Under the pieces are notes generated by a model. That model ran no database searches, was not told where the DNA came from, and was given only the letters and a program-made list of their open reading frames with translations. A stretch of DNA of 64,000 nucleotides from Porphyra umbilicalis (taxonomy: Eukaryota > Rhodophyta > Bangiophyceae > Bangiales > Bangiaceae), in contig KV919044.1 in NCBI GenBank assembly GCA_002049455.2, positions 39,770 to 103,769 on the forward strand, read 5' to 3'. How positions within the stretch are numbered: position 1 is the stretch's first letter; the number at the start of each line of letters is the position of its first letter. The position numbers and the translations under genes were made by a program. Positions 6,124 to 63,957 of this stretch are shown here, one piece after another.

Positions 6124-6139
6124 TTGACAACGCCTGGTC

Positions 6140-14600: not shown

Positions 14601-14611
14601 CGCGACTCGTC

Positions 14612-16423: not shown

Positions 16424-16443
16424 ACTACAACCTCTCCAAGTCC

Positions 16444-40257: not shown

Positions 40258-41022
40258 TCACAATAACCAGAAAAAAGGGGGGGGGGGTACGTAGATAGTA
40301 CGCGGAAAATGTGAGTGTCTCTGTTGCAGTCTGCAGGACCCAGCCGCTCCCCCCCCCTCCCCCCGCTCCGCTGCGGGCTGCTCCTCACAAAACGGTCGCA
40401 CTTACATCCGGTCTCCATCGTCGTCCGCCATATTGCACCCCTCCACAGCAGGAAGACAACCAGTCGGCGATCGTATGGGCTCGGGGGCCTCTGGAACGCC
40501 TGCAGGCGACCGGCGTGGAAACGAGCGGGCAAAAAAACGCGGGCAACACGTGATCCGGCGGATCACGGCTCAATCCATTGCTCATCCTCTCCGGTCAGCC
40601 ACCCCTCTCACAGGGGCATTGAAGGCCTATAAAATTGGGACGCGTCCCAAATCGCCCTCGACCAGTGGTATTTTAGCACGTTGCAGCTCTGTCGTGTGTA
40701 ATGCTCAGACCCGTAAGAGTCACCTTAACTAGGCGTGTGCATGTACATGCAGACAGGAATCTCTCAAGTATCTCTCAAGCTCGATAACTCTTGTGTCACT
40801 AATTTTGTCATTTTAAGTTTTTCCTGTTTCAGGGGGTCCACGTTATTGCCTCAGTTTTGTCTCAGCTTGCACTCTGGCTGCTGTGCTGTCGCCTGGCCCA
40901 GGCGGTCAGTCTGATGCTGGATCCCTCGCCGCCTTCGGCGCCTCTCCTCACCACGACCCCGTCACATGCTTCGTCTCGCCCCTCACGCCGACTAACTGTT
41001 GCTTCTCTGGGCTTCTTTCGTC
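40258..41022. promoter_or_regulatory. Intergenic; TATA-like box upstream of Rpt3
   Basis: TATAAAA at 40628-40634 on the plus strand is followed by the perfect palindrome GGGACGCGTCCC (40637-40648). It is about 390 bp before the Rpt3 start and inside the right end of the candidate transposon. It may drive Rpt3 with a long leader, belong to the transposon, or be fortuitous. Confidence 0.25.
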
Positions 41023-42252: not shown

Positions 42253-42665
42253 TACAGCTTGCGCTCTTCTCATCTTTTGTTGCCTGCTCGGGCTTCCTTC
42301 CATGAACAAAGCTTTTGCCCATCACGTATTCTTATCGCCAGGTGTCGGGTGTGGTTTGACTCGCCCATCTGCTGAATGCCTGGTGGCACCTCTTGAACTG
42401 CTCTGGAATTTGCATGCGCCTCCGTACAGGGACAACATACGAGCCAAGCGCCACCTGCAGCCGCCGCCGGCACCGTGTATGTAAGAAAAGACAGGTATTG
42501 TAGGTCTACAGGCTCAATCGGTTCTATGAGCAAGAGAAACGCAGCTCTCTCGGCGCCCACGCATCGGCGCCGCCTACACCAGCGAGACGACCCCACACAA
42601 GCTCCCACGATTGCCCGCCGCCGAAACTCGACGGGCACTCGCAGCTCCCACCTCCCACGAGCGCT
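42253..42665. other. Convergent intergenic spacer between Rpt3 and channel genes
   Basis: This 413-bp spacer between two convergent genes holds both 3' regions. No polyadenylation hexamer AATAAA was seen on either strand and no repeat was noted. Confidence 0.5.
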
Positions 42666-45386: not shown

Positions 45387-46404
45387 GATGTCGGCCAGCC
45401 GTGGTCGCCGTGATACGGTGCCGCTGTCATCCGCCAGCCGAAGCGAGCCAGCCGCGGCGGGAGAAAACGGCGAAGTGGTGGCCCGGCACCCCCCACATGC
45501 CCGGCGGGAAATTAGCGGTGTTGAAGTGGGTGATGGACTTGATCATGCCACACGGCTCTGCCTCGGTTGCATGTGTGCGAACAGAATGCATCGACATCCT
45601 ATCTCGGCACCGATACCGTCAGTATCCGGTCACATGCGCTTCAGATACTGCTGGTCAAGTCATGCGGAGGGAGATTCCCTCATGAAGGCCATATCTCCCC
45701 GGATTTCCAGTCGCTCTCGCAGCAAGAACACATTGCATTGGTCAGGCCCTACAGCCGTTCTCCCAAAAATTCCGCACTCCAACTGTTGCAACAAAGTTCC
45801 AATTCCAGGCACGTGCGTGCAATACCCTGGCCTTCACAGGGCGGTGGCGCGCTCGGCGACGCATTGACACCGGGCACGCCGGCCGGCTCTATGGCCGCGA
45901 GCGCGCACGGGAGCACGTACAGCCACGTTGCCGTGGTGGGGGGGGCGTCGGGCGGGGAAAGGGGTGCCGCCTCCGCCACCGCAGCGGTAGCGGCCCCCGC
46001 CGGCGTCGCGCGGCGCCCACGGGCGAGGCCGTCAATCCGCCGCGCAGCGCACCAGTGCGCACGGCGGGCAGGGCGGGCGACACGGCGCACGGGCGGGCGG
46101 GTGGGACTAATCGCCGCGCGACGAGGCGCCTGCAACAGCGCCGCTAGTAGATGGCGTCAGCAACCGCCGACGCGCCGCCGCAACAGAAGACGGCGCGCAG
46201 GCACGATCACCCGCGGGTCATCGTGGGCGCGTCAAGCCCCGGAAGTCGCTGCGCGCGGTCACCGCGCGCAACTCGGGGCGGTAGAGGGGGCACGGGGGCA
46301 GGCGCCGTCCGGGTCCAGTGACCCCTGTGGCAGGACAGTCCTTCTCAGCCACGTAACTCCATTCGTTCTTAGCGTCATCGCGACCCTTCCAACACTGACA
46401 CGCC
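45387..46404. other. Intergenic, no supported gene
   Basis: The 5' flank of the channel gene. A GC-rich patch at 45840-46300 with CGGGCGGG runs keeps frames open but has no domain-like sequence. Confidence 0.5.
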
Positions 46405-46412
46405 CTCAGATC
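46405..46412. repeat. Left copy of 8-bp target duplication CTCAGATC
   Basis: CTCAGATC lies directly outside the left terminus of the 17.5-kb element and is repeated exactly at 63950-63957, directly outside the right terminus. Confidence 0.85.
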
Positions 46413-46425
46413 AAGGGTTGTGCAT

Positions 46426-46680
46426 CACGCCCCTTTTTGGGTGGCGGGGTGGGCGATGCACGCCTAATCACGCCCTTCTACACAGCGTTTTGTCCCCGAT
46501 TCCTTAAAACTGAGAACTGCGAGATTCGAACACGCCCACCGATGGTTCGCAGAACAGTCGCACATTGATCATGCGATCAAATGATGCCCACTTTTTGTTG
46601 ATCCCGGAGACAGAGCCCGCACACTGGGTTTTGTCGTCGATTCGTAAAAACTGATCGGGCCCGAATTTGAACAGCCAAGC
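46426..46680. repeat. Left subterminal repeats
   Basis: CACGCCC occurs at 46426, 46469 and 46531, with CACGCC at 46459. A block containing GTTTTGTC.CCGATTC.TTAAAACTGA is repeated about 141 bp apart (near 46487 and 46628), and both copies lead to an ATT(C/T)GAACA word. Such clusters are typical transposase-binding regions. Confidence 0.55.
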
Positions 46681-47261
46681 GGGAGGCCTCGAAGATTAAC
46701 CTGAAACGGGTGTGAGTTGATAATGTTGAGTCATTCTGGCTGTCTTTGAGGCCGTCTTCAGATGATCCTTAAGTTGCTTGTGGAACAGTATGGCAGAAAT
46801 AATCACGCAATAATACTGGGCTCCTGACAGAGTTGGATGGCGTTCATCTCCAGAATTGTTTGACAGACTGTCCTGCGGATCGTTGTTGATCACGTTTTTG
46901 GTTTGTCCGCCAGGCAATTCCTAGAACAGACCCTGTCTCCAGTCTGGGGACATCCGACAGATTTTCTGAGAAGGGAACACCAGGGCGGGCCCGCGGATGC
47001 TCTTTGCGCGTATGTTGATGAAGGTCCCCAGGTCAAGTGCGCTTCTGCATTCGGGGCATGGAACAGGTGCTCTAGCACGGGGGCCACAACTCTTTGGGCA
47101 CGGGGTCTACTCTAAGCGGGTACTACCTCTCTTTCCTGCAGCTCGCTGCGAGGTGCACGCGGCGCAGCGGGGACTGAAGTCACTTCGAACGCCTCGTCCC
47201 CCGCGGGACAGCAGAGGAGCAGCGGCACGTCACATCTGTAGCTCTGCACTGAGCTTCAGTC

Positions 47262-50200
47262 ATGACGAGCCGCAAACGTCGTAAGCGCGGGCCCCGAGCG
47301 GCCTCGTACTTCCGATTCGAGGAGGATGACATGCTCTCTGTTCCGCGTTCACTCCGCACAGAGGACGCTGCCTCGCACACTATTGGGCCTGCCCGCCAAA
47401 GTGGCGCCCAATCCTCGCGCACGTCACCGGCGGCTGGAATTCAGGCGCCAGAGGCTGTACAGAGCGGTCGGCGGGAATCGGTGGGGCATCCTGATGACAG
47501 CCCCGCTGCCGAACCTCTGTCAAACTCAGATGAGGGTGACGCGGTGAACATGGAGATGGTCTCTTCCAGCAGCTCAGACATTGACTGGTGCGGCCTGACC
47601 GACGAAGAAGACGTAGAAGGCATTTTCAAATCTAGTCGAGAGCTACATTGCTACGGCTATCTCTTTGGCAAGGGCCGCCTCACGGTGCGGCAGTACGACA
47701 GGATGCGCGAGGTGGAGAACACCCTGTGCGCGACAGAGCAGTGGCCATCGAGATGGCGCTTGGGAAAGATCCGCGCCGCCCTGTTGGAGCGAGCCGCTCC
47801 CGTGCGCTGGCAGCGAACATGCAGGACACTGCCTGTCGGGAAGGGAAAGACAATGCGAAAGCTGCCGGACGTTCGAGTCGGCTACGTCCCTTTTTCTGCT
47901 CACGTCGTCAGGGACTTTGCAGACCCTGTCACTGCAGCTCTGTTTCATGACGCCGGGGACTCAGCGCTCGGCTCCGCAGAAAGACCGGCAGAATTTTTTC
48001 AGACCCTGGCGGCTCGGGATCCGTCGCACTTCAACTTTCGTCGTGGTTTCCGCCTCAACGGCGACTTGTACAAAGTCGGGTGCACCATGAAGCTGTGTAT
48101 GTCGGCAGTCGAACACATGGAGGCGCATCTAGAGAGCACAGGTATTGCTGATGACGGAGACGTTACTCTGTCAGAAGCGATGTACGCCATACCGACGTCC
48201 CTTCGAGTGGGAGACTTCACTGCCTCCTTGTTGTTGTGCTCCACTTCTCGGTCACCGCCTTCAATAAAGGCCTGCTTTGCTGTGGATGGTTCTTGCACCA
48301 TACGCTTTACTCGGGATGGTGCAGTGTACATCCAGTGCGTGAGTCCTGAAGCCGACGCTGTGGCAGGCAGCTGGTTGAAACTCTGCTCGGCTACGCAAAT
48401 CACGCTGAGTTCGTCTTCGGTAGAAGTCGCTGAACAAATGCCGGCGAAGGACCCGCACGTCGTCTACGCTACATGGTTTGCGGACGAGTACGGAGTTTTA
48501 AAGCGTCGCAGAGGAGACATAGAGGGGCACTACGGGTCGTACACCTCCTTTTGTCTGAAGGACAGACAATATTCTGTTCGCCCTCTGTTTTACCTTCCAC
48601 CTGGGGCGGACGCTCGGCCACTCGTGTTGCGAATTGTGGAGGATCTCCTGATGCTTTCGACAACAGGAGTAGTTGTGCATGATGCCTTCTCCAAGCAGGA
48701 TGTAACCGTGCACGTGTATCCGTGCATCGGCATTTTTGACTTCCCCATGGCTGCAAAGTTTTCCAACACTATCGGAGCGCCCGGGGTGGAACACTGTACT
48801 AGTTGCGACATTGTCAGCCAGAAGACAAGCAGTGTGCGACAGGACCGCGCGATGAACAGCGCTCATGTATTTGATGTGCGGGACGTAAGGTACGCTCGCA
48901 TTCAAGAGCGTACAGAAGTGATTGAGTCAACCATCGACCGCTCCTTGGTGTCGTCCGATGCGGCCAAGAAGGTTGCTCTCCACGCGAACGGCATATCAAA
49001 AAATGTGGGCAATCACGTGAGACTGCTTGCTGGCGCTCGAGGTCCCGGGTCATTCGATGTTCACGAGCACGTTATATCAGCCCCATCACATCTCCTCCTG
49101 TATGGACTTGCTCCCCGGCTTCTGGACTCGACGTTTACGTACCTCTCAGTCGCCCAGAGGGATCTGTTCCTGGAGCGTATGCGAGCAGCTGCGACGCACG
49201 TGCCCTCCAACACCGTCCTGTCCGCTTTTGAGCCGGAAAAGATGGGTGGCACAACGCTCTCAATGGCCGACTATGTCGTGCTCCTGAACATCGCGCCTAC
49301 TGTTTTGGATGGGATCATTTCCAGAGCTACGGCTGCGCCAGATATTCTTAGCACCTTAGTGGCGCTGTCATCTTTGAGGGGCTTTGTCAACACGCTGTTC
49401 TATAGGCCTACACGGGACGCCGATGGAGAGGAGGCAGTCCGCTCGAGGCCAAATGTATCTGAACTGCAGAGACTCGGACGTATCCTCATGAGCGACATTG
49501 GCACACTAGCGACTCACTCAGGCAAGTGGGACAGACCTGTCGTCCACCGATTACTTGAGCTGCTGTATCGCACGCTGCCCATCGTACAGCTGGGTCCTGC
49601 ACTGTGCGAGCTTCTGTTTGAGAAGTTCCATCAGCACTCCAAGCGAGAACTTCTTCTCAGCAATGACAAAGATCCAGCCGCGTTCTCCATGCTGCGGTGG
49701 AGAGAGGTTGACGTGCTCGCACGGTTCCTGAGAGATGCAACGGCCAATGGCGTTCCGGCCGAGTGGCTTAACAATCGAGACGGGTCACAGTTGAAGATGG
49801 TGCAGCATCACATGCAAGGGGCCCGTTCGGTGCCGCCGCATCCGGCAGACAGCGGATGGGTCGTCCGCAAGAAGTTGGATGCACAGACTTTAGGCTTCCA
49901 GTGCCCACCGACACTCGCGAAGTCCGGGGAAGTTGTGCAGTTTTGGCGGATGGCGCGCTCTGGTGGCCGTCTCAGGCTCAAACGGGGGAGCACGGTTGGT
50001 GTGCTCGAACGTTCCTCCCGTACGCGCGTTGTTGCCCGCAACGGGACAGTTAACGAGCCGAGCATTTTCATGGATCACTTTCTGGTGCGAGGCATTGCAA
50101 CCGTGGAAGGTGTCGTGAAGCTCGTCTGCCAACGGTGGGTGCGGCCTGCTGGCCAAGCAGCCAGCGGTACGGGTCAACCCAATGAAGTAGTGCCAGAGGA

Positions 50201-50321
50201 GCCCAATGAGCTTGTTATACTTGTTGCACAGCAAGTCAAGCAGGTCGCGCTGGTCCTGCCGAGCCAGTCGAAGATGTTTTTGTTTCACAAGAAGTCGGGC
50301 TTTCCGTTCAAGTGTGGGTAG
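47262..50321 (+). CDS. tnp2/Plavaka-like transposase, superfamily uncertain
   Basis: The product is 1019 aa from ATG 47262, a single intact frame. A basic N-terminus (MTSRKRRKRGPR) could be a nuclear signal and is followed by an acidic serine-rich stretch (SSSSSDIDWCGLTDEEDVE). The centre resembles the tnp2-type cores of CACTA-related elements: GHYGSYTSFCLKDRQYSVRPL, a valine/leucine-rich segment, VYPCIGIFDFPMAAKFSNTIG and a paired-cysteine ending, HCTSCD. Downstream DVHEHVISAPSHLLLYGLAPRLLDS could supply a second acidic residue. CACTA elements make 2-3-bp duplications, whereas the enclosing element shows 8 bp, so the assignment may be wrong or the gene may belong to a new group. It is convergent with the JmjC gene at 50508, 186 bp away. 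Confidence 0.6.
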   Translation: MTSRKRRKRGPRAASYFRFEEDDMLSVPRSLRTEDAASHTIGPARQSGAQSSRTSPAAGIQAPEAVQSGRRESVGHPDDSPAAEPLSNSDEGDAVNMEMVSSSSSDIDWCGLTDEEDVEGIFKSSRELHCYGYLFGKGRLTVRQYDRMREVENTLCATEQWPSRWRLGKIRAALLERAAPVRWQRTCRTLPVGKGKTMRKLPDVRVGYVPFSAHVVRDFADPVTAALFHDAGDSALGSAERPAEFFQTLAARDPSHFNFRRGFRLNGDLYKVGCTMKLCMSAVEHMEAHLESTGIADDGDVTLSEAMYAIPTSLRVGDFTASLLLCSTSRSPPSIKACFAVDGSCTIRFTRDGAVYIQCVSPEADAVAGSWLKLCSATQITLSSSSVEVAEQMPAKDPHVVYATWFADEYGVLKRRRGDIEGHYGSYTSFCLKDRQYSVRPLFYLPPGADARPLVLRIVEDLLMLSTTGVVVHDAFSKQDVTVHVYPCIGIFDFPMAAKFSNTIGAPGVEHCTSCDIVSQKTSSVRQDRAMNSAHVFDVRDVRYARIQERTEVIESTIDRSLVSSDAAKKVALHANGISKNVGNHVRLLAGARGPGSFDVHEHVISAPSHLLLYGLAPRLLDSTFTYLSVAQRDLFLERMRAAATHVPSNTVLSAFEPEKMGGTTLSMADYVVLLNIAPTVLDGIISRATAAPDILSTLVALSSLRGFVNTLFYRPTRDADGEEAVRSRPNVSELQRLGRILMSDIGTLATHSGKWDRPVVHRLLELLYRTLPIVQLGPALCELLFEKFHQHSKRELLLSNDKDPAAFSMLRWREVDVLARFLRDATANGVPAEWLNNRDGSQLKMVQHHMQGARSVPPHPADSGWVVRKKLDAQTLGFQCPPTLAKSGEVVQFWRMARSGGRLRLKRGSTVGVLERSSRTRVVARNGTVNEPSIFMDHFLVRGIATVEGVVKLVCQRWVRPAGQAASGTGQPNEVVPEEPNELVILVAQQVKQVALVLPSQSKMFLFHKKSGFPFKCG

Positions 50322-50507
50322 GCATGTCCATCAAGCAGGTCTTCCCTCTGAGAGGTCGTGAGGGAATAAAAGCATGGGGCATATACATCATAAAGAACAA
50401 CAGCAATGATAGTGAGCTGTGAAAGACCCGCAAATGCAGAAAGCTCTAACTAAGAGCAACAGAAAAAAGCAAAACTCAGAAAGAAATAAGAGTGCGACGT
50501 GCAAAAG

Positions 50508-53500
50508 TCAATGGAGGACAGTCTCCAGCAGGCGGCGCAAACTGGCGACCAGATCTCTCACCCGTGAGGTGGAGAGGCGCCACACCACCAGGGGCTTGTG
50601 CGAACCGTCCACAGGCCGGTCGGGCTTGCCCTCCTCCTGTATGACGTGCCAGCAGCGATACGTGCTTTCGGCGCAGCGCCAGCAGCACAGAGGCGCCTCG
50701 TCTGGAGCGCCTCCAAAGTACGATATGCACGTCGGGCAGACTACGACGGACAGCCAGTAGACAGCGTAGCACGTTGAACACGTGTACCCATCTCCAGAGA
50801 GGTCCACGCGCAGACCGTCATTGACATCGGCCTCCCGGACCGTGTCCGCCGCCAAGAAGGCCTTCACCTCCGGGCTGACGCTATCGACGGCCATCGCCTC
50901 GCAGCCTGCCCCTTGGCCGCTGACAAAGCGTTCGTTCTCGAGCAAGTACCGCTCCAGGTACGCGATAAGCACGTTGACATCGCGGACAAAAAGCGCAGGG
51001 TCGCAGGCTGCAATTGAGCTCGCATTACCAAACCACCACTTTCCATCAGCTAGCAGCTCGCTCGAGAGTACAAGGAGCTTCTCAAAAGGAAAGGGGACAT
51101 ACCGAAGCTCCAAATAAGCTTGCTCCATGTATTCAACAGCGCGCCCAAACCATGCCAAACACGTGTAATTGACGGCCGACGCTACGTTGGCGCCGAGGTT
51201 GAGGCCCATGTGTGGGGCACCTGCGGCTGTCAGGACATAGTCGCCGACTTCCTGACGCACCAGCGACATCTTCACGCCGTTGTCTAGCAAGACTTGGGGT
51301 GAACAGTACGCGCGCTTCGTTGCCAAGAAGTTGCGGATATTCCGCCCGACGACAGCGAGCACGAGTGGGTGCAGGCACCGGAGCAGCACGTCGAACATGT
51401 TGCAGACCTGGTCCGGAGGAGCTACCCACCAGAGTTTTGGGGCTCCTTCCTGGAGGAAGGACAAAGAAAGCAGGTTGCTGTCCTCCATGTGCAGAGGGAA
51501 CATTGACCCAAGTGTTCCCTTGTAGAGCATATTGGTCGTCATGCCCTCGTAGGTGGATAAGTAGCGAGACATTCCGACGCGATTGAGCGTTCTAGGACTG
51601 TCCAGGCGGTCTCTAGGGGACCGACACGTTCCAGTTGGCGCAGCGTCGGGATCCCCAGCGCTTCTACCGAGCCCATCACTCCTGGAAGGAACTATGTCGT
51701 TCTGATAAGGAATGCTGACCTTGACCAACGGCGCCACAGACAGCCTGACCCGGCTGCCGTTGCGCGCCGAAGATCGATCATCAGTGCGCACAGGAAACAC
51801 CGACGGGTCGTTTACGCTGAGCAGGAAGCGCTCTTCTCCAAAGTCAGGGAACTGCATCAGCAGCTCGGCAGCACTAGCCTTGCAGCTGGCTTCGTAGCTA
51901 GTCCTCGACACCTCTCGCTGGGCGCAATCGGGGAGAATGCCCGCAAAGGGATCCGCATCGTCATGGCATTGCTCATAAAAGCCGGATGCATCGGCGTGGC
52001 GTTGAATTTTGCTCACCACAGTTGGGATCATGGGGAAAGTTTGGTGTTGAACTTGCACCTTTGCAAGTTTTGGGACGGAGCTCAATTGCGGCCGGATTGA
52101 TGGACTTACACGAAACAAGACAGCTCCAAACTCTTCCACTTGCCGAGAGTGCTTACGAATTAAGTACGGAAGGCCGTCGGGTGGCACGTCGTCCACGTGA
52201 ATGATGGGAGCCGAGAGAGCCACGCATCGCTGTGTTGGCCCGTCCATGCGCGCCGTCGCGTCAGCGGCCGTCTTCGCGTCAGCGGCCACCTCCACGGCCG
52301 CAGCACCCGCCGCGGCTGACGCCGCTCTGGCACGCCGTCCGTGCCGTCCGCCGCGCATCTGCGCATGTACTATGCGGCGACCACCTCCATCTCCATTGCG
52401 ACCGCCGCCGCCTTCGAGGCCGACCCCTGGTCCCGCTTCCGCTCGTTCCCCACCCACGCTAGGAACGTTGCCACCTGCCCCGACACGCTCTTGCTGCGCG
52501 CTGCCCCCTCCATGGAGCGGCAACATGACACCGGCAGAATGCCTCTGTGCTTGTGACACACTGTGAGGTGGCCGAGCTGGTGCAGGAGCGCTTATACCAA
52601 TCCTGCCACCTCCCCTGCCCCCTCTTGCGGTGCCTCCACGACCGCGACGGACATCTCGTTCGTGCTGCGGAGCGTCCACAAGTAAATCCGTGCTGCTGTA
52701 GCTGTCCGGGCTCGCCTGACAGCGTCGGGGGTTGCTTCTAGCCGATGGCCGTCGACCGAGGTGAGCGCGGCGTGTCGGTGGCGTGTGCGTGCGTGCTGCA
52801 TACGATGATGAACCACGTCCACTCGGCCGGGGCGCGCCAGCAATTTTGTCATCTTTTTCTTGACGGTGCGCCGCCTGGTTGCTCAAGTTTCGTTCGGCAG
52901 CGACGTCCACAGCAGCTTGTAAGCGCCCCACCCGTGGGTCGAGTATCTTGGACGCGTCAGCCGCGCGAAACAAGGCTGCAACGTACTCTCCCCTGCTCAT
53001 AGAAGGCGTGCTTGACGGAACGACTGTCTCACCACCTGTGCGGGGCTGTCTGGCTCGTCCACGCGTCATGGCCACACGAGGAGAGCGACCCGCCACGGAG
53101 TGGCCCGCCAGCGGCCCACCGCTGTCGCTGTCAGAGACGGCATTGGCGTCAGCGGCGCGTTGCAGCCGCTCACGATACGAACGACCACTACCGCGGGAGG
53201 AGCTCCTCCGGCGCGCGCCAGCAGAGCCATGTCCGTTGCCGTCACGGCCCCGAATGCCAGACGCTTCGCCCGACTCAGCATTGTCGGCATTGTCTACGCG
53301 TCGTCCCCCATCGCCCACCGTACCTTCGTCCCAATCGTGCTCTCCCTGCCCATCGCTGTCGTCGTCGTCACCGCGGTTGTTGCTCGCCCCGTCGAGGGGG
53401 CTGCGGCACATCGCGCGGCCAGGCTCCGCAGCGGTGGCCCGGCGACGTGCACTCCGACCTCGTCCCTGACCGTTGTCGCCGTCAGGTAGGTGGTCCGCGA

Positions 53501-55949
53501 ACGAATCGTGCTCTCGGTTGCGTTGTCTGGACGGGCCGCTCCAACCGAGCAGCAAATACCCCTGCATTGTCGGGATGGACGATGCGGGCCCGTGGCGATG
53601 AGCAAGGAGAAGGCCGCACGTGTACTCCCGCATACCCCTTGCGGTCAACACACTATCCCATTCCTCCCTTCCTCCGTGCATGAGAGAGACCTTGTGCTCT
53701 TCTGCAGTGGATAGTAGAAAGAAGACATGCGCCAGCATCGTCGAGCCAGTCAAATGCAGATCCATTTCCCAAGCCCCATCACCGAGGGCAATGGGGGTGA
53801 GCAGCGTCCGAACAACGTGCCCCCGCGACTGCAAAGACGCCGTTGTCGTGGGCAGCCCGTGCGCGAGGCACGAAGCAACCGTAACAACGTCTTGCAGCCG
53901 CCGCACGGACTGGCTACGGAGACCCGCGCCCCGAGACGCCGGGTCAGCGACTATGCCGAGGAGAGCTGGCTGCGTTGCTCGCTGCTGCGTACCCGTGCGG
54001 CACCTCCTGGCTTCGAGCATGTGGCTGTTGAGAGCCTCGGGAAATCCAAGCATGACGAGCGCGCACCACTCGTTGCCCTCAAGGATGGGCACTACCAGTG
54101 TCCTCGTACGTAATCCACCGGCGGAAACTAGCGCCCTGGCAGCGTCCATTGTTCGACCGCTTGTGTCCACGTCATGCTGAGATAAAGACCGCGAGCAGGG
54201 GCGCCTGCAGCAAAAAACGTCCGACCAAAACGAGCTCAGAACTGCTGTGGCATACTTGGGCGAGGCCGGGTTTGATACCTTGCTCTGCAACCACAGCAGC
54301 AGCGCATCGACAAGCGGCTGCGTCCACCCGGCCAGCTCGGTCCCCGTTGATACCCCGACGAGGTCCTCTGCCACAAGAACCGATCGTCCGACAGCGCCCG
54401 GTGGAAAGCTAAATGGTGGGTCCAGGGGAAGAGTGAGACGACGAGGCGGCAGCAATGGTCCGGTACGTACGTTATGAGTGGCCTCAGGACGTCCGTCGTC
54501 GGCACTCACCGGGCGAGCAGCACTAACATCAATTCCAGTTCGAGCCGACGCGCCTGTGCCACTCTTGGATCGACTTGGAGGACCCGAACCGCGGCTTCCG
54601 ACAGACCCGCTGCCAGACCTCAACGAAACGGGCAGCTCTGCATCGTCATGTCCTTCCGCTAGCAACGTCCGCCGCTTTTTTTGGGACGTTTTGTTGGCAT
54701 TGTTCAGTGGGCGACCTCTTCTGCTTGAAGGCGAGCGCGTCGAAGGAGTCCTAGACTTGCTCCTGCGCCTCCGAGCAGACTCATAAGGCTCTGTGGCAGA
54801 CAACGTTGGAGCCTCCAACACTGCAGTGGAAGACGCCCAGTCCAGAGGTGGTTGCGTCCGAGGTGGGTGCCCCGACCTTCCGACACGCGCAGTCGTCCCC
54901 GGCTCCGCACGGCGAGCAGAACGAGGCTCAGGCATTGTGTTAAGTGCAGGCGCGGGTATCTCATCACAGGACGACACGTCGTTGGCATTCAGCGGAGCAG
55001 TACATGAAGGTCCCGCTCTCGGTCTGGTCCAGTCGTCTCTGCCAGCGCGCCCGTCCACGGTGCCGTGTACGCCACCCCGTCCATCACGATCACCGGTGTG
55101 CTGCTCCCAAGGTCCGGATATTCCATGCAGCTGCACGTCTCCAGGGCGCGAGGCGTGGGGCTCAACGTCGGGTGCATGCCACTGCCCTGGTGCTGCAACA
55201 TTCGAGCATGCTCCAGCGCGTGGATTTGCTGCATACACATGTGCGCCAGGTTGTGGCACGTACTGGGGAAATGCCCCTGGCAAAAGAGGTGGTGGATAGA
55301 TGCCAACTGGCACCGACGGAGGTCCAAACGAGGTGGCGGCAGGTCTCCCACTTACAGGGTGTCCATAGGAAGGTGGTCGAGCCCCGGGGAGCCCTGTCCC
55401 ATGAGCTCCCATCGTTCCATGCGCCGCAGGTATCTGATTGACGTGGTTCATGCGCAGCTGCGAGATGGAGACGAGCTGCCCATTGATGACCACGCAGTCA
55501 TGCTCCCCGCCAAAGACAGACGCCAGGCCACTCCCAGGCTGCGAAACGAGGGCAGGAGCAGGACTCACAGGAGCAAGACTTGCTCCACTGCCTTGTGGGT
55601 GCGGCTCAAGACGGCGCGCCAGATGCCGTGGATGAGAACCGACCTCGTTGGGCTGCAGCGGCACAGCAGGTACATGCGGCACATACGACGGCGCTGCAAA
55701 GCTCCCTGGGACAGCACCTGTTGCTTGTGGCATGGCCCCTTCGTATCGGTGAAGCGCGACCGGCACCTCGGAACTTCCATCCGGAAAACGTGCGGTTGGT
55801 CCAACCGTACCACTGCCACGACCACGCGATAGTGGCGCTCGAGGAGCTTGCATGGGTCGAGGAGCAGCGTCACCAGCACGCTCCGCCGCTGCCGCAAGCT
55901 GGCGTCGATGACGCCGTCCACGCGAAGAATTACTCGGCGCCTTCGCCAT
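50508..55949 (-). CDS. JmjC-domain protein with degenerate Ulp1-like region
   Basis: The product is 1813 aa from ATG 55949. Residues 1-530 are Pro/Gly/Ser/Arg-rich. Residues ~530-760 resemble a Ulp1/C48 protease fold (WTQPLVDALLLWLQ, TRTLVVPILEGNEWCALVML, LLGIVADPAS), but the His-Trp is Glu-Trp and no DCG motif is seen, so it is probably inactive. A long acidic/RG-rich linker follows. From ~1290 there is a JmjN-like piece (VDDVPPDGLPYLIRKHSRQVEEFGAVLF), then a KDM4-type JmjC core. Iron ligands H1487, E1489 (HMED) and H1580 (APHMGLNLGAN) are all present, as is the 2-oxoglutarate lysine K1505 (GAPKLWW). The position equivalent to KDM4A Asn198 is Ser. A cysteine-rich zinc module (C1724 onward, CSTC...CPTC...CCWRC...C) ends the protein. 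It should be an Fe(II)/2-oxoglutarate dioxygenase, probably a histone demethylase. Its location inside a transposon is the remarkable point. Confidence 0.8.
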   Translation of the reverse strand: MAKAPSNSSRGRRHRRQLAAAAERAGDAAPRPMQAPRAPLSRGRGSGTVGPTARFPDGSSEVPVALHRYEGAMPQATGAVPGSFAAPSYVPHVPAVPLQPNEVGSHPRHLARRLEPHPQGSGASLAPVSPAPALVSQPGSGLASVFGGEHDCVVINGQLVSISQLRMNHVNQIPAAHGTMGAHGTGLPGARPPSYGHPVSGRPAATSFGPPSVPVGIYPPPLLPGAFPQYVPQPGAHVYAANPRAGACSNVAAPGQWHAPDVEPHASRPGDVQLHGISGPWEQHTGDRDGRGGVHGTVDGRAGRDDWTRPRAGPSCTAPLNANDVSSCDEIPAPALNTMPEPRSARRAEPGTTARVGRSGHPPRTQPPLDWASSTAVLEAPTLSATEPYESARRRRSKSRTPSTRSPSSRRGRPLNNANKTSQKKRRTLLAEGHDDAELPVSLRSGSGSVGSRGSGPPSRSKSGTGASARTGIDVSAARPVSADDGRPEATHNVRTGPLLPPRRLTLPLDPPFSFPPGAVGRSVLVAEDLVGVSTGTELAGWTQPLVDALLLWLQSKVSNPASPKYATAVLSSFWSDVFCCRRPCSRSLSQHDVDTSGRTMDAARALVSAGGLRTRTLVVPILEGNEWCALVMLGFPEALNSHMLEARRCRTGTQQRATQPALLGIVADPASRGAGLRSQSVRRLQDVVTVASCLAHGLPTTTASLQSRGHVVRTLLTPIALGDGAWEMDLHLTGSTMLAHVFFLLSTAEEHKVSLMHGGREEWDSVLTARGMREYTCGLLLAHRHGPASSIPTMQGYLLLGWSGPSRQRNREHDSFADHLPDGDNGQGRGRSARRRATAAEPGRAMCRSPLDGASNNRGDDDDSDGQGEHDWDEGTVGDGGRRVDNADNAESGEASGIRGRDGNGHGSAGARRRSSSRGSGRSYRERLQRAADANAVSDSDSGGPLAGHSVAGRSPRVAMTRGRARQPRTGGETVVPSSTPSMSRGEYVAALFRAADASKILDPRVGRLQAAVDVAAERNLSNQAAHRQEKDDKIAGAPRPSGRGSSSYAARTHTPPTRRAHLGRRPSARSNPRRCQASPDSYSSTDLLVDAPQHERDVRRGRGGTARGGRGGGRIGISAPAPARPPHSVSQAQRHSAGVMLPLHGGGSAQQERVGAGGNVPSVGGERAEAGPGVGLEGGGGRNGDGGGRRIVHAQMRGGRHGRRARAASAAAGAAAVEVAADAKTAADATARMDGPTQRCVALSAPIIHVDDVPPDGLPYLIRKHSRQVEEFGAVLFRVSPSIRPQLSSVPKLAKVQVQHQTFPMIPTVVSKIQRHADASGFYEQCHDDADPFAGILPDCAQREVSRTSYEASCKASAAELLMQFPDFGEERFLLSVNDPSVFPVRTDDRSSARNGSRVRLSVAPLVKVSIPYQNDIVPSRSDGLGRSAGDPDAAPTGTCRSPRDRLDSPRTLNRVGMSRYLSTYEGMTTNMLYKGTLGSMFPLHMEDSNLLSLSFLQEGAPKLWWVAPPDQVCNMFDVLLRCLHPLVLAVVGRNIRNFLATKRAYCSPQVLLDNGVKMSLVRQEVGDYVLTAAGAPHMGLNLGANVASAVNYTCLAWFGRAVEYMEQAYLELRYVPFPFEKLLVLSSELLADGKWWFGNASSIAACDPALFVRDVNVLIAYLERYLLENERFVSGQGAGCEAMAVDSVSPEVKAFLAADTVREADVNDGLRVDLSGDGYTCSTCYAVYWLSVVVCPTCISYFGGAPDEAPLCCWRCAESTYRCWHVIQEEGKPDRPVDGSHKPLVVWRLSTSRVRDLVASLRRLLETVLH

Positions 55950-56059
55950 GACAGCCACAACAGATAGTCAGGAAAAGACCCGTTCCCACACAGACAAATG
56001 CTGACGGACGCTGACCCCCACGGCCACGTCAACCAGCACCACAACCGCCGCAGCGCGAA

Positions 56060-58690
56060 TGCGAAAACAGCTGCACGTATGTGGGCGCTCTTGGACGTCA
56101 ACCCGGGCGCCACAACGCCACAAGAAGGTATTTGTTCTTGGGCGTTGGGCTCCTCAAGCCGTCGAAAACACCTCACACCTCGCCACCAGCGCCACAACGC
56201 AAGTGCGCCAACAGTCGCACAAGCGCGGGCGAGCTTGGGCGCCAGCCCAGGCGCCACTAACGCCACAAGGAAGTATGTTTCCTTGGGCGCTGGGCTCCAC
56301 AGGGCGACCAAACCGCAACGTTCTCACCCCCACCTCGCCACAAGCGCCACAACGCAAAAACGACAACAGCCGCACGTGCGTGGGCAAGCCTGGGCGCCAG
56401 CCCGGGCGCCATGAACGCCACAAGGAAGTATGTTTCCTTGGGCGCTGGGCTCCACAGGGCGACCAAACCGCAACGTTCTCACCCCCACCTCGCCACAAGC
56501 GCAACAACGCAAAAACGACAACAGCCGCACGTGCGTGGGCAAGCCTGGGCGCCAGCCCGGGCGCCACGAACGCCACAAGGAGGTGTACCTCCTTGGGCGT
56601 TGGGCTCCACAAGCCGACCAAACCGCAACGTTCACACCCCCACCTCGCCACAAGCGCCACAACGCAAAAACGACAACAGCCGCACGTGCGTGGGCAAGCC
56701 TGGGCGCCAGCCCGGGCGCCACGAACGCCACAAGGAGGTGTACCTCCTTGGGCGTTGGGCTCCACAAGCCGACCAAACCGCAACGTTCTCACCCCCACCT
56801 CGCCACAAGCGCCACAACGCAAAAACGACAACAGCCGCACGTGCGTGGGCAAGCCTGGGCGCCAGCCCGGGCGCCGCAAACGCCACAAGGAGGTGTACCT
56901 CCTTGGGCGTTGGGCTCCACAAGCCGACCAAACCGCAACGTTCTCACCCCCACCTCGCCACAAGCGCCACAACGCAAAAACGACATCAGCCGCACGTGCG
57001 TGGGCAAGCCTGGGCGCCAGCCCGGGCGCCGCAAACGCCACAAGGAGGTGTACCTCCTTGGGCGTTGGGCTCCACAAGCCGACCAAACCGCAACGTTCAC
57101 ACCCCCACCTCGCCACAAGCGCCACAACGCAAAAACGACAACAGCCGCACGTGCGTGGGCAAGCCTGGGCGCCAGCCCGGGCGCCACGAACGCCACAAGG
57201 AGGTGTACCTCCTTGGGCGTTGGGCTCCACAAGCCGACCAAACCGCAACGTTCTCACCCCCACCTCGCCACAAGCGCCACAACGCAAAAACGACAACAGC
57301 CGCACGTGCGTGGGCAAGCCTGGGCGCCAGCCCGGGCGCCGCAAACGCCACAAGGAGGTGTACCTCCTTGGGCGTTGGGCTCCACAAGCCGACCAAACCG
57401 CAACGTTCTCACCCCCACCTCGCCACAAGCGCCACAACGCAAAAACGACATCAGCCGCACGTGCGTGGGCAAGCCTGGGCGCCAGCCCGGGCGCCGCAAA
57501 CGCCACAAGGAGGTGTACCTCCTTGGGCGTTGGGCTCCACAAGCCGACCAAACCGCAACGTTCTCACCCCCACCTCGCCACAAGCGCCACAACGCAAAAA
57601 TGACAACAGCCGCACGTGCGTGGGCAAGCCTGGGCGCCAGCCTGGGCGCCGCAAACGCCACAAGGAGGTGTACCTCCTTGGGCGTTGGGCTCCACAAGCC
57701 GACCAAACCGCAACGTTCTCACCCCCACCTCGCCACAAGCGCCACAACGCAAAAACGACAACAGCCGCACGTACGTGGGCAAGCCTGGGCGCCAGCCCGG
57801 GCGCCGCAAACGCCACAAGGAGGTGTACCTCCTTGGGCGTTGGGCTCCACAAGCCGACCAAACCGCAACGTTCTCACCCCCACCTCGCCACAAGCGCCAC
57901 AACGCAAAAACGACAACAGCCGCACGTGCGTGGGCAAGCCTGGGCGCCAGCCCGGGCGCCGCAAACGCCACAAGGAGGTGTACCCCCTTGGGCGTTGGGC
58001 TCCACAAGCCGACCAAACCGCAACGTTCTCACCCCCACCTCGCCACAAGCGCCTCGACGCGAAAACGACAACAGCCGCACGTGCGTGGGCAAGCCTGGGC
58101 GCCAGCCCGGGCGCCACGAACGCCACAAGGAGGTGTACCTCCTTGGGCGTTGGGCTCCACAAGCCGACCAAACCGCAACGTTCTCACCCCCACCTCGCCA
58201 CAAGCGCCACAACGCAAAAACGACAACAGCCGCACGTGCGTGGGCAAGCCTGGGCGCCAGCCCGGGCGCCACGAACGCCACAAGGAAGTATGTTTCCTTG
58301 GGCGCTGGGCTCCACAGGGCGACCAAACCGCAACGTTCTCACCCCCACCTCGCCACAAGCGGCTCGACGCGAAAACGACAACAGCCGCACGTGCGTGGGC
58401 AAGCCTGGGCGCCAGCCCGGGCGCCACGAACGCCACAAGGAGGTGTACCTCCTTGGGCGTTGGGCTCCACAAGCCGACCAAACCGCAACGTTCTCACCCC
58501 CACCTCGCCACAAGCGCCACAACGCAAAAACGACAACAGCCGCACGTGCGTGGGCAAGCCTGGGCGCCAGCCCGGGCGCCGCAAACGCCACAAGGAGGTG
58601 TACCTCCTTGGGCGTTGGGCTCCACAAGCCGACCAAACCGCAACGTTCTCACCCCCACCTCGCCACAAGCGCCTCAACGCGAGAACGACA
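56060..58690. repeat. 155-bp satellite array, 17 units with a conserved hairpin
   Basis: Sixteen hairpins are spaced exactly 155 bp from 56266 to 58591, and a diverged first unit lies at 56123. Because 155 is not a multiple of three, frames on both strands stay open while cycling through three registers; the long frames here are not genes. Each unit carries CTGGGCGCCAGCCCGGGCGCC, then a hairpin. Three versions of the stem occur: CAAGAA/TTCTTG (unit 1), CAAGGAA/TTCCTTG (units at 56266, 56421, 58281) and CAAGGAGGT/ACCTCCTTG (most others). The unit at 57971 has ACCCCCTTG, one weakened pair. The array lies between the JmjC gene and the two-exon gene within the 17.5-kb element. Confidence 0.95.
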
Positions 58691-59698
58691 GCATAGAAAA
58701 GCTCACAGTTGTCATCACCGGGTCGCCTCAAAGGGTTACCCTTTAGGCTAACCCGGGGTGCGCTCAGTATGCGCATGTTGGGAGCCACAGGGTGCGCGCG
58801 CCAGTACCCAGCGGGGGGGGCGCCAGGTGAAGCGCAGCAGCGTCTGCAGGCGGCGCTCGGCCTGCCACGCAGGTCGGTGTGTGAGGCCCGGTCGGTCTTG
58901 TGACACAGCAGGCGACCCGTCGCGACCCCTCGTCGATCGGCCGACGGAGATTGCGATCAGGCCGCCGACGGCAAGCAGCAATTTTGAGCGATGCACTTGG
59001 TCCTTACCTTACTGACAGTGGACAAATGCAAGTTCCAACTTCATATAAATACCAATTAATATCCAGTACTTCTGTTCAAAAAATGAAAACGTTCTTCAAA
59101 TTTCGGCACATCAGTTCTGAACACCCTTGATCATGTCTCCTCTACGACGTTGGATCCAACTTCGGAGACTGGTCAAACACTTTCACGAGCAGTTTTTGTG
59201 TCGCACCCAATCAGATGCGTGCGGAGAGGCCTGTCACTTCACATCGACTCCTTTTCTTCCGCCAGCGCTGTCGACGGGTTTTGATGTGCCAGCCACACTT
59301 AGGCTTGACACTACCCGGCGCCATGGAGGTACTGCCTGGCTGTGGAGCTGGTGGGTACGACGCGTCGTGGCACTGCAAAATAGTTCTTTGCCACTGGCAA
59401 GGCGAAAGAATTCGTCGCGCAGGTAGCGACCTGTGGTGTGCGTTGTGATCTCGCCGGATCTGTGGCCTCTCGCCCTCCCCAGGCATGTTCTCCGGCATGT
59501 TCGCCGGCCTGGTAGGTTTTCGCGGCGCTCAGCGTTCCACGGCCCGTACGATGCACTCCGTACTCGAGTTCTACGTGCCTGGCTCCGTGTTTTGCGACGT
59601 GCTCCGGACTACGTCCTCCGTGCTCCGTCTTTGTGCTTCATATTCCATGCTACGTGATCCGCACTCCTTGCTCCCTTACGCTCGTTGTACTGCGAAGC
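58691..59698. other. Intergenic; hairpin at the end of the satellite
   Basis: AAAGGGT (58730-58736) and ACCCTTT (58738-58744) form a stem with a one-base loop just after the last satellite unit. The rest of the interval has no supported gene. 59020-59110 is AT-rich. Confidence 0.45.
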
Positions 59699-60415
59699 AT
59701 GTCTGGCGGTAATGACTCGGAGGGTACCCCTTCGACTCCTCCATCAAGCCCTGGGAGTGTTCTTCGCGCTCAGCAGACCTTGTATGAGCAGCAAGTGTGG
59801 GCCACTCGTGGGGTAAGACTGCACCGAACCATCGAATGTCTTGCCGTCCGAGTTGTAACATTCAGGACATATGTACTCCCTACGCCAATGCATTCATGTA
59901 CCGACGACTAACGCGCGCTTTACTTTTCATCTGGTACCGACGGCTTCGACGCATGCATCACGGATGGCCCCTCCCCACAGGATGACGCATGCTTTCACTT
60001 CGCTCGCTATGGCCAAGTCATGGTCAAGAAGATACACAAGTCGGAGGTGCCCCCGGGGAGGCGCAGCACACAGGAGGACGCCGCCGATCACGACTGCCTG
60101 ACCTGGTTCAGCCCACCTGGACATCTTGAGGGTCCGCACAAGGATACAACGCGCTGTCTGCGGACCGTCATAGACGAGGCCGTCGACAAGACGACTACTG
60201 GCGTCTCGCAAGGGCCAAATGGCTCCGTCATCAACAAGATCAAGTTCAAGAAGGCTCTGAAGAAAGGTCTGCGCATGAAGTGCAACCGGCGCCGCAACTC
60301 TGCGCGAGTGCTCGGCTACCGGCTTCTCGGCGTCTACCTCGACACGGTCGTGCCTCAAGCCAGCGTGCAGGACATCGTTGTCGCCAACGGCCTGGTAGCC
60401 AACAATGACGCGTAG
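59699..60415 (+). CDS. Hypothetical two-exon gene, followed by an in-frame extension
   Basis: I do not recognise this gene. Exon 1 (59699-59813) encodes MSGGNDSEGTPSTPPSSPGS... and ends at a GTAAGA donor. A 167-bp intron ends CCCCACAG at 59980. Exon 2 (59981-60415) continues in phase to a TAG. The predicted product is about 182 aa. It is basic in the middle (KIKFKKALKKGLRMKCNRRRNSARVLGYRLLGVYLD). The same frame stays open after the TAG to a second stop at 60745 (LDLDATAAALLGEFLGIDPVDVRKSARAAG...), adding about 110 residues. The clean splice and basic composition suggest a real nucleic-acid-associated accessory gene of the 17.5-kb element; that role is inference. Confidence 0.5.
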
Positions 60416-60745
60416 GGGGCCCCTGCTCCTTTGCCTGGCATCACGACTGGTCACCGGCTCGTGTTGGACCACGACGGCACGCAGACTAAGCGCATGCTGG
60501 ACCTGGACGCTACGGCTGCTGCACTACTCGGCGAGTTTCTCGGTATCGACCCTGTCGACGTGAGGAAGTCGGCACGAGCAGCCGGAGCCGCGTGCGTCCA
60601 AGACTACCTCGGTCACGGCGAATTTCCTCGTTGCTTGCGCCCCGAGAGCGGCGAGGTGCGCAACGCTGTCGTGCAGAACTTGAATGACGAGCTCCAAGAC
60701 GCAGCGGCGCGTGACATCAACTTGTCGGAGGACGAGACGGACTAA
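60416..60745 (+). other. Open continuation of the two-exon gene beyond its TAG
   Basis: This frame continues exon 2 without a shift. It has protein-like composition (DLDATAAALLGEFLGIDPVDV, ARAAGAACVQDYLGHGEFPRC, NLNDELQDAAARDINLSEDE). Either the TAG at 60413-60415 is a nonsense mutation, a readthrough site, or a further intron removes it; no obvious GT-AG pair around the TAG was seen. Confidence 0.35.
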
Positions 60746-63700
60746 CTCTCTGCAGCACCGTCCGCCGTCGCAAGGGCCGTGCCGTGTACGCTTCGTGCGC
60801 ATTATTAATACTTTTCTGTGTTCTACGTATTTTTTATCGAAGAATTTTGTGTTTCATTGTATGGATAAAAGCACCGTTTCGTACCCGCTAGCGTCCTCCA
60901 GGAGTTCCTGCTGTCTCTTCGGCTGACCTCCCTCGACACCAACGAAGGAATTTTATGCACGTCTGTCATACGGATTATGGCACTGTTTACATCCGGGAGT
61001 GCCCCGCGTACTACCCGAGCGAGCGCCACGCAGATTGTCTCGAAGTCAGGATACAAAGTGTGCTGCAGAGCGGTGGGCAGCATTATCGTACTGCTCTTCT
61101 ATAGGCGTGTATTCTGGGCAGTCTGTCGGACTGTACGCAATGGGTGCTTACGAATGACCTCTATCGTAGCCGGCAGGATAGTCACGGCATTTTCCCAGTC
61201 GACTTCATGCAGGTGCATATTCTGGGCAGACTCTGCGACTGTACGGGATGACTGCTTCCGAATGACCCGTAACGTTGCCAACAGGATAGTTGTGGTGTTT
61301 TCCCAGTCGATTGCATGCCGGCTCGCGCACGAAAAAGACACACGGACGGCGTTCTGATCTGTACCAAATATGAGCGGCAGGGCGGTTGCGGGCAATAATT
61401 TCCCTGCGAATCTTACAAAATATGCAGGATATTATTTGACGTACTGTCCTAAACTCTTCAGCATAGCTGTTCAGCCGCAAGACTCTCAAACAGTCCCTCA
61501 ATAGACCCTGCAGACAATCGCCGGCTCTGTCCGTAGAACGATCCCGTGTCCGTATCCTGGGCAATCTGGGAAAGCCATTTACAGTATATATCTGGGACGT
61601 TCCAATCGTGGCTCAGATTACTATCGTTAAGAGAGGCGTCCAGACATGTATTTGTTCGCTTGCAGATGGTCTCTAGGTTTGTCAGGCCACCACAGTGCTT
61701 ATGTTTTATCAAATTATTCTGCAAACAGTCGTGAAGATACTGTGGATAACTGTTCGTTATAGATTGAACGTGTGTGATTCGGAGGACTATCCTCAGGATT
61801 AAAAAACAACGCACAGTGCAGTGGAGTTCAGAAGTGCTCGAAGACCATCTGCACCGATATTCAGTGGGAATTATCCTCACACCAGCACCTGCAGATTTGG
61901 CAATTGTCCGGCGAAGTTGCTGCCCCATGCTCATGAAGGATCATTCCGATTCGCTGGTTCTAATCGTTCGGCGTATCGTGCTCAGAACTGTCCTGAAGTG
62001 GGAGTAAGATCATCCTGAGGATCGTGCTCATGACTATCCTGGCGTCGGAGTACAATCATCCTGGGGATCGTCGTCATAGATTGAGTGAACGAGTGAGCAA
62101 GATTGATCTAGATTGCTGCCTCAAGGACTCGATCGTAGATGATAGCCTAGACTACTTCGAGTGACGTCGTGAGGAGGGTCTGCCGAAACCGATCAGAGAG
62201 CAAGACCTGCCCATGGGGCGTCGCTCCTGGGCCACAAAGCGTGTGCAGAGGGAGCCTCAATGTTACTTGGTAGTCGTGCGACCGACACGCTGTTTCCCCG
62301 TGCAGAGGGGATGGGAACTGGGTAAACATGCGTCGGCTCGCACATCGAGAATACCGTGAAGTCCCGGACGCACCCAGTCCCGATTTATCAATGATTGGGT
62401 CTCCTTCACGCGCAGTAAATTCGTTCTCAGCTCAGTGGCAATCTCGTCCCCATTCGTCCTAACACAGCACGTCCCGAACTCGCAATCCCCCTGTTCAATA
62501 CGGTTCAGAAGCACTCGCACCAGTGTCTCAAGCGCATGAGTGATGTGTCAGATTGCAAGTTGGGCATTGCTCTGAACGAAGAGAATGTCCACAGGTTTGT
62601 GTTCACACTGTTGACGAAATAGGCAGACATTTTGTTTGCGGAAGAGGCAGTCAGACAATCAGTTGAACAAGTCCTCACATTTTGTTCGAATGACAGTCCC
62701 CGAGATGATCTGTGGGTCAGGATGACACTGCTTCTGGAACGATCCCAGAGTCAGTCCCGAAGATGATCCGTTGAACGAGTCCAGAACTGTAGTGATGAAC
62801 TGCCGAATCACAGAGGTCACTCGAGAATCAGGCAATCTGAAATGTAGGATTTTCGCTGATCCACGGAACTTTTGTGCACATGATCCTCCGAATCATGCTG
62901 AGGCCATCTCACAGGAGCTTTGCATGGCTATCTCAAAACATTCTTTCGCGTCTACTCGTTATAGATTTACAAGCCGGCAAATTTAGAACTTTCCCGGCGA
63001 TGAAATACCGACCCGCAGTGTACACGCCCCCAACATTGGCACGCCCCTCTTCACGCCCCTAATGTAGCCCCATGTTTTGGCACTTACTTGATAAGCGATT
63101 CAAAGTACCCAATATTCTTGCAATTTGGATGGTTCAAAGGACCACAAAAATGCCAGAAAACATGAAGGAAACAGCTGCATGCGATACACTCTCTTGGCCT
63201 CTGCCACTTTGCGTCAAAGATGCTTTGCAGCATCAGGGGACGTCGGCTCGCCTAGCCTCCACCGGCCGCCCCACCGCCCGCTGTCCCACCCATCTCACCG
63301 CGCACATAGCCAGAGCAGATGGTCATCAAATCATTCTCGGTCGTGGCCGCGGGGGCGTCCTCGTCGCCGGGACGACCAAAGTCCGGTCCAGGGACGCCGG
63401 CGCCAACCATGGCGCATCGGGCGACCTCCTCGTTCAGGAGGCGCGTAGCTCGCCGCCGGCACCCCTCCATCACTGCCGTCGGCCTGGTCGTTGCCGGCGC
63501 GCGATGCGTTGCATTCAACATCCTCATTGGCGCCCGTGTCAAGGAGCCCCTCTGCGTCCTCCCTGGCTGATGACAGCAGGTGTCCGTTGCTGTGCCATTC
63601 CGCACAGATGGCGTCCGCGCATCATGGCGTCGAGCACCTTGTTTGTGGGCGCACGACGGAAAAATGGTTCCCACTCCTCATAGCGTCGAGCACCTTGTTT

Positions 63701-63929
63701 GTGGACGCTCGGCGGAGCAGGAAGACACCGCGCCCTGAAAAAGTAACGAAGGTGGCACGGAACCGAACAGTATTCGGTGGACTGGCGCCCCAAGAGCGCA
63801 CTTGAAATGATGTACTTTTTTTCATCAAGCACGCCCCAATCACGCCCCTAAAATTCTGGGCGTGCAGGGCGTGACACGCCCAAAACACGTGAATTTTGCA
63901 CGCCCCAGGCGTGCAATTTAGCACGCCCC
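60746..63929. other. Right arm of the 17.5-kb element; short tandem duplications, no supported gene
   Basis: A 108-bp direct duplication spans 61111-61326 (ATTCTGGGCA at 61111 and 61219). A 46-bp duplication spans 61978-62069 (GTGCTCA...CATCCTG.GGATC twice). CACGCCC words occur at 63023, 63040 and 63052. CGTCGAGCACCTTGTTTGTGG occurs near 63628 and again near 63685. Short frames on both strands lack domain character. The interval is GC-balanced and looks like non-coding or long-decayed sequence. Confidence 0.5.
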
Positions 63930-63949
63930 GGGCGTGTTGCACAACCCTA
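63830..63949. repeat. Right subterminal CACGCCC cluster and terminus
   Basis: CACGCCC or its complement GGGCGTG occurs many times in 120 bp (for example 63830, 63841, 63858), ending in the inverted terminus at 63930-63949. The mirror cluster at 46426-46537 marks the left end. Confidence 0.7.
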
Positions 63950-63957
63950 CTCAGATC
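63950..63957. repeat. Right copy of 8-bp target duplication CTCAGATC
   Basis: Exact match to 46405-46412, directly outside the right terminus of the 17.5-kb element. Confidence 0.85.

Follow-up and report, generated by a model that had tools for sequence, protein, structure and literature searches.

The window analysed here is a 64,000-nucleotide stretch of contig KV919044.1 of the red alga Porphyra umbilicalis. Its positions 46405-63957 consist of three DNA transposons nested one in another (L1, L2 and L3) within an older interspersed repeat (L0), as established by comparing their joined pieces with other copies in the genome. L2 went into L1 at a TA dinucleotide and L3 into L2 at a CA. We think it probable, from its sequence, that L3 is a CMC/CACTA-like transposon carrying a KDM4/KDM5-like JmjC protein as a standing part, possibly for anti-silencing. 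An earlier sequence-only reading of this stretch had combined the outer termini and the internal genes into a single 17.5-kb transposon. The termini belong instead to L1 (995 bp), which is split by L2 (1341 bp), which in turn is split by the gene-bearing L3.

Three nested transposons

The ends of the stretch are as the sequence-only reading had described them. Inverted repeats at 46414-46432 and 63930-63948, which agree at all but one of their 19 bp (with three mismatches allowed, a shuffled window is expected to yield 0.04 matches), abut identical octamers, CTCAGATC, at 46405-46412 and 63950-63957, and CACGCCC clusters are present at both ends (32 occurrences in the window, 24 expected). The octamer alone is expected 1.35 times per window, and its weight comes solely from abutting the inverted ends. 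Joining 46413-46480, which ends in the TA taken by L2, to 63023-63949 yields the 995-bp L1, which is 98.4% identical over 1000 columns to locus L010 on contig C142. L010 has the uninterrupted junction, CTTCTACACGCCCCCAACATTGGC; most other L1 copies have TG where L010 reads TA. Genome-wide, the L1 terminus was found 216 times in forward and 215 times in reverse orientation (up to two mismatches), compared with 11 and 12 times for a reversed control pattern, and the right end of L1 has at least 41 further matches. We paired each left end in the fetched loci with the nearest right end, dropping pairs with the same flanking octamers and, outside the window, pairs of more than 3 kb. Among the resulting 27 distinct pairs, the window's included, 22 have an exact duplication of at least 8 bp outside T-AGGG...CCCT-A and five do not; 24 of the 27 span 0.6-1.0 kb. 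Other copies with both termini do exist, but they mostly form a separate family of about 1 kb. L1 resembles non-autonomous hAT/KDZ elements in its 8-bp duplication and its short inverted ends (TAGGGTTGTGCA, which we take to be hAT-like). It differs from hAT/KDZ elements in having no transposase inside: the one L1 frame of more than 200 codons (63063-63683) has no Pfam match (no search was aimed at an autonomous partner).

The target of L1 is itself an interspersed repeat. The left side of L0, including the first CTCAGATC, covers 45900-46412, and at least 39 other copies of 46290-46412 were found at 98-99% identity among the best 40 of 1001 candidates. The insertion site is empty in seven fetched paralogues (L010, L022, L028, L033, L034, L057 and L073), in which the left and right flanks overlap by exactly the eight duplicated bases; the right match of L033 is only 16 bases long, and the octamer of L073 contains a mismatch. 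L0 resumes after the second octamer and runs to the contig end at 64000, which is also the right edge of the window, leaving a right flank of only 43 bases. Two other L1-type elements lie near the corresponding position of L0: one in L023 (G000:C14 341490-344637), about 10 bp from the window's site in the same repeat and without detectable duplication, and one in L018, about 19 bp upstream of the window's L0 site and with an 8-bp duplication. L0 may be a frequent insertion target.

L2 is a non-autonomous element of 1341 bp with CACAG/CACTG ends. Its left piece, beginning CACAGCG, covers 46481-46621, and its right piece, ending CGCAGTG, covers 61821-63020 and is followed by TA at 63021-63022. 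The joined sequence aligns over 1340-1342 columns at 97.6-98.7% identity in 22 fetched loci, several of which overlap one another; 20 of the 22 alignments are gap-free. Among the listed matches to 58900-63100, 36 of 42 start exactly at window base 61818, and by our own count among these listed matches at least 28 of the 36 places carry 46480-46621 directly before it. In the 15 copies distinct by their flanks (one copy matched over 1-1340 was excluded from this count), the target duplication is 2 bp in all 15 and 3 bp in none, and the duplicated dinucleotide is TA in ten, CA in two, TG in two and AA in one.

L3 measures 15,197 bp (46622-61818) and lies between CA at 46620-46621, after which L2 is broken, and CA at 61819-61820. 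It starts with CACTGGGTTTTGTC and ends with GCACAGTG (CACTGGG...CACAGTG). On C103, C70 and C24 the left end begins at the identical base with different sequence outside it; the right end likewise stops at the identical base on C63, C13, C427, C160 (CACTGTG) and C18, with TA or CA next to it. On C24 (G000) there are three L3 left ends, near 33.3, 54.2 and 76.9 kb; they share one flank, which points to duplication after insertion, and were counted as one insertion. The left end on C103 (G000, near 191054) is 97% identical and starts CACTAGG; this copy possibly represents another L3 subfamily. The satellite and right end were matched on C63, and the left part of L3 on C468. The ends of L2 and L3 are similar to each other, the score of the left ends being reached in 0 of 1000 shuffles and that of the right ends in 4 of 1000. 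Given this similarity, L2 is most simply explained as a non-autonomous relative that the L3 transposase could move.

An exact octamer duplication next to matching ends is what a single 17.5-kb transposon with 8-bp duplications would leave, and it was the basis of the sequence-only reading. That explanation is to all intents ruled out by the uninterrupted copy of L1, the uninterrupted copies of the 1341-bp L2 and the presence of L3 ends in unrelated flanks; the termini come from an element unrelated to the one that bears the genes, the very outcome that the sequence-only reading had named as its refutation. The nest illustrates how misleading an exact 8-bp duplication can be when genes lie between its two copies. 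Every level has its own uninterrupted counterparts, and since this holds for all three insertion sites, an assembly join need not be invoked.

The genes of L3 and their order in other copies

L3 contains an uninterrupted gene for a transposase of 1019 residues (47262-50321, + strand); a convergent gene for a JmjC protein (50508-55967, - strand), open over 1819 codons with the first methionine at codon 7; a 155-bp satellite; and a third gene (59699-60745, + strand). The transposase, the JmjC gene, the satellite and the third-gene region are found in the same order and orientation in two degraded copies, on C70 and C18. On C70 the transposase is present in pieces of 80% and 76% identity, with an insertion of about 2 kb between them, and the JmjC protein in pieces of 70-81% (protein level); the satellite and the third-gene region follow. 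On C18, residues 1-741 of the transposase are 81% identical, a deletion has taken its remainder together with the catalytic half of the JmjC protein, and the remaining JmjC part (67-74%) is followed by the satellite and the third-gene region. This shared order upholds the claim that a DNA transposon carries a JmjC dioxygenase gene as well as a transposase, a satellite and a further gene.

It could be argued that L3 is a composite, the JmjC gene and the third gene being further insertions inside it: L3 is long, nesting is common here, and bases 28001-29249 of C70 and 280001-282891 of C18 were left out of our reading. Against this, both copies keep the order and orientation of all four parts, and the satellite is matched only where other L3 sequence stands. 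We therefore consider a composite L3 very unlikely.

The satellite, recognised already in the sequence-only reading, comprises 16 copies at 56176-58690, with a degenerate first unit from 56039. It is matched at five places in the genome (all six candidates were scored), all with L3 sequence; outside the window these are on C70, C427, C18 and C63, each of which also holds sequence of the L3 right region. A general host satellite was rejected on these grounds.

The third gene was confirmed as a two-exon GT-AG frame. It consists of exon 1 (59699-59812, 38 codons), an intron of 168 bases (59813-59980) and exon 2 (59981-60745, 254 codons), and both GT and AG are present in all four aligned copies (judged by eye). 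Among the four copies, the ratio of non-synonymous to synonymous substitution rates (dN/dS) is 0.43-0.67 in the true frame, with one to three stop-bearing codons per pair, compared with 0.62-1.13 and 0.88-2.41 in the other two frames, with 7-12 stop-bearing codons; the true frame is not the lower in one of the six pairs (C70-C427). The in-frame stop of the window copy, at 60413-60415, is missing from the three other copies; those on C70 and C18 have stops of their own and that on C427 has none. The third gene is likely, but not proven, to be coding.

The L3 transposase

According to an excerpt of PMC12730594, transposons of the CMCT group (CACTA/EnSpm) are defined by 5'-CA..TG-3' termini (CAC..GTG in EnSpm), a duplication of 2-5 bp and a tnp2-type transposase, with C(2)C and H(3-4)H motifs between the second D and the last E. 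The sequence-only reading had called the L3 transposase tnp2-like. The open reading frame does match Transposase_21, but with E=3.3e-4 and 20.3 bits it falls below the Pfam cut-off of 28.6. Among 8000 candidates scored out of 5.8 billion proteins, five relatives, P0001-P0005, were found at 41-51% identity, all without a name; their scores against the Pfam tnp2 family are 18.6-28.3 bits, all under the same cut-off. P0001-P0003 align over nearly the full length of the transposase, P0004 and P0005 over less.

Asp408, Asp493 and C512-x2-C515 are invariant in all six rows of the transposase alignment, and Glu783 and Glu787 in the four that extend that far. The H(3-4)H motif is absent from the window transposase between Asp493 and Glu783. 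It is present in P0001-P0004 at the place where the window sequence differs, and absent from the partial P0005; the conserved His601, His603 and His610 are spaced otherwise. A search of solved structures with the L3 transposase returned nothing useful, and the predicted model, with a mean predicted local distance difference test score (pLDDT) of 39, is too poor for comparison. Viral contigs, scanned for both the transposase and the JmjC protein, and NCBIfam also yielded nothing of use.

L3 shares with CACTA/EnSpm elements the 5'-CAC...GTG-3' ends, a short duplication, a possibly tnp2-related transposase, the C(2)C motif after the second Asp and abundant short relatives with similar ends. L3 and L2 differ from them in their 2-bp duplications of TA, CA, TG or AA, in the sub-threshold Pfam match and in the missing H(3-4)H motif. 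Because of the last two features, we term L3 CMC/CACTA-like and do not file it as a member of EnSpm.

The L3 JmjC protein

The JmjC assignment of the sequence-only reading is well supported (Pfam JmjC, E=1.7e-14). The domain comprises residues 1481-1600 (51168-51527, - strand), and the only Pfam match of the open reading frame is to JmjC, with none to TET/JBP. The closest solved structures are KDM4, followed by JMJ13, JMJ14 and KDM5. The metal ligands His1493, Glu1495 and His1586 (HxE...H) and the PK-W lysine, Lys1511, are kept. The Ulp1 domain that had also been proposed was not recovered: there is no Pfam match at E<=1, and the model of residues 525-845 (mean pLDDT 29.7) is too poor for comparison.

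Relatives of the protein include P0006 (92% identical over 1288 residues), P0008 (87%), P0009 (37-40%) and P0010 (81% over 23%, with no JmjC domain). Despite its divergence, P0009 retains the metal ligands and a C-terminal cysteine module. The only named match is a fungal jumonji protein, 30% identical over 31% of the region. At E<=1, Pfam finds no JmjN in the window protein or in its relatives P0006 and P0009; residues 1253-1287 may be JmjN-like. The best reading of the sequence is that the JmjC domain is KDM4/KDM5-like and the protein a predicted histone demethylase. In common with KDM4 and KDM5, it has a JmjC domain, alignable over about 135-180 residues, the HxE...H site and the PK-W lysine. 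It differs from them in that it is a transposon protein, encoded by 1819 codons, whose long N-terminal part has no Pfam match, and in that Pfam detects no JmjN.

JmjC proteins have diverse substrates, and the L3 protein might act on a non-histone substrate or as a non-catalytic chromatin factor. An excerpt of PMC7192584 offers a precedent in fission-yeast Epe1, which opposes silencing through a non-enzymatic function. However, the nearest solved relatives of the L3 domain are the KDM4/KDM5 lysine demethylases and its metal ligands are intact, and we judge this alternative unlikely.

Probable constraint on the L3 proteins

Amino-acid changes in the window and in the degraded copies were assigned with the help of outgroups; silent changes could not be polarised. 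For the JmjC protein (outgroup P0006), the window has 56 changes and C70 170 (1262 sites), and the window 24 and C18 145 (569 sites). For the transposase (outgroup P0002), the window has 7 changes and C18 65 (714 sites), and the window 3 and C70 21 (273 sites). As both branches span equal time, the smaller number of changes in the window suggests that its lineage was constrained for much of that time.

Transposons pick up host genes, and the JmjC gene could be a passenger of this kind, captured from the host and of no use to L3. Relative to the degraded copies, the window JmjC protein has gained more changes than the transposase, the ratios of window to copy being 56:170 compared with 3-4:21-26 for C70, and 24:145 compared with 7:59-65 for C18 (transposase outgroups P0001/P0002). 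The C18 copy has, moreover, lost the catalytic half of the JmjC protein. On the other hand, the frame of 1819 codons is still open, a relative of about 40% identity retains the metal- and zinc-ligand residues, and searches with the JmjC protein returned no close named relative of host type, although these searches were limited in sensitivity and the JmjC genes of the host itself were not listed. Taken together, we find a passenger gene rather doubtful, and prefer a JmjC protein that is a standing part of L3.

Neighbouring features

The nest is adjoined at 40996-45542 by ordinary host-type genes, for a proteasomal AAA ATPase and for an ion channel in which two stretches match Ion_trans. A 941-codon frame at 37432-40257 (- strand) matches DUF1280 (E=7e-8) and looks like a further transposase-type protein; a 333-bp tandem repeat (36054-37245) lies beside it. 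More distant from the nest are a transposase of the Plant_tran/DDE_Tnp_4 kind at 22804-24024 (- strand; E=1.5e-59) and a piece of a retroelement polyprotein at 6509-7474 (+ strand; Pol_BBD, E=2.6e-7).

Discussion

Several observations weigh against regarding L3 as a CMC/CACTA-like element that carries its JmjC gene as a standing part. The window copy is the only one found that has both L3 ends, and the CA/CA duplication of L3 rests on it. C427 has the satellite and the right region, but its bases 4001-17000, the 13 kb examined, contain neither a transposase nor a JmjC gene. On C103 and C24, where the left end recurs, neither the satellite nor the right region was matched, and 180 bp checked on C103 where a collinear JmjC gene would lie revealed no JmjC sequence. 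The tnp2 match of the transposase is below the Pfam cut-off and its H(3-4)H motif is missing, as described above. The third gene is broken in the window copy by its in-frame stop, and its coding signal is modest. The dN/dS values of the transposase and JmjC genes compared with the degraded copies are not low (0.59, 0.78, 0.95 and 1.17 for the four gene-copy pairs); these are uninformative because the C70 and C18 copies carry stops. Finally, decay at CpG did not point consistently to DNA methylation in the three copies compared, the rates of C>T/G>A change at CpG and elsewhere being 0.067 and 0.058, 0.029 and 0.027, and 0.095 and 0.046.

From the observed ends and duplications we infer that the L3 transposase most likely acts on the CAC...GTG termini of both L3 itself and the 1341-bp family, inserting these elements with 2-bp duplications. 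The JmjC protein would most likely demethylate histone H3 on L3 or its relatives, so that transposase expression is kept. We infer this anti-silencing role from three things: the kind of domain, the preservation of its metal ligands, and the finding of the JmjC gene in more than one copy of L3.

The sequence-only reading had envisaged a JmjC dioxygenase in an element with 8-bp duplications, as an analogue of the dioxygenase-bearing KDZ transposons of fungi. The 8-bp duplication belongs to L1, however, and L3, flanked by CA/CA, differs in this from KDZ (Zisupton/Dileera/Kyakuja) and hAT elements. As L3 has CAC...GTG ends and, in the cases tested, duplications of 2 bp, the analogy lies with TET/JBP-bearing elements of the CACTA/EnSpm type, not with KDZ or hAT. 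An excerpt of PMC12730594 names Kyakuja, Dileera, Zisupton, EnSpm, Plavaka, ESTA and others among the TET/JBP-bearing transposons of fungi, and gives the proposal that the TET/JBP genes help them against silencing by DNA methylation. L3 is similar in that its transposase is accompanied by the gene of a dioxygenase akin to epigenetic erasers; its enzyme is a JmjC protein of the histone-demethylase type, not a TET/JBP protein. Another parallel is provided by the VANDAL elements of Arabidopsis, which, according to excerpts of PMC5735166 and PMC10398659, encode sequence-specific anti-silencing proteins, VANC. If our reading of L3 is true, both are cases of a transposon-encoded protein that counters the silencing of its own family, but VANC is sequence-specific whereas the proposed agent of L3 is an enzyme; the two are likened by their description in those excerpts.

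It is possible, though we would advance it only tentatively, that L3 is the founding case of transposons that encode their own KDM4/KDM5-type demethylase and with it clear silencing marks from their own sequence and from that of the short relatives with the same ends. Such elements would be an independently evolved counterpart, acting on chromatin and not on DNA, of the fungal TET/JBP transposons. No JmjC gene in a DNA transposon was found in the titles and abstract openings of the papers listed by the literature searches, a scope that leaves out most subscription literature; one listed paper, on endogenised giant viruses (PMC11244446), uses the word JmjC ten times. L3, its degraded copies and its short relatives are all present in one genome, which makes this a testable case. 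In the literature, transposon-borne erasers figure as TET/JBP enzymes acting on DNA; a JmjC protein in a CACTA-like element would, if true, extend the arms race to histone marks.

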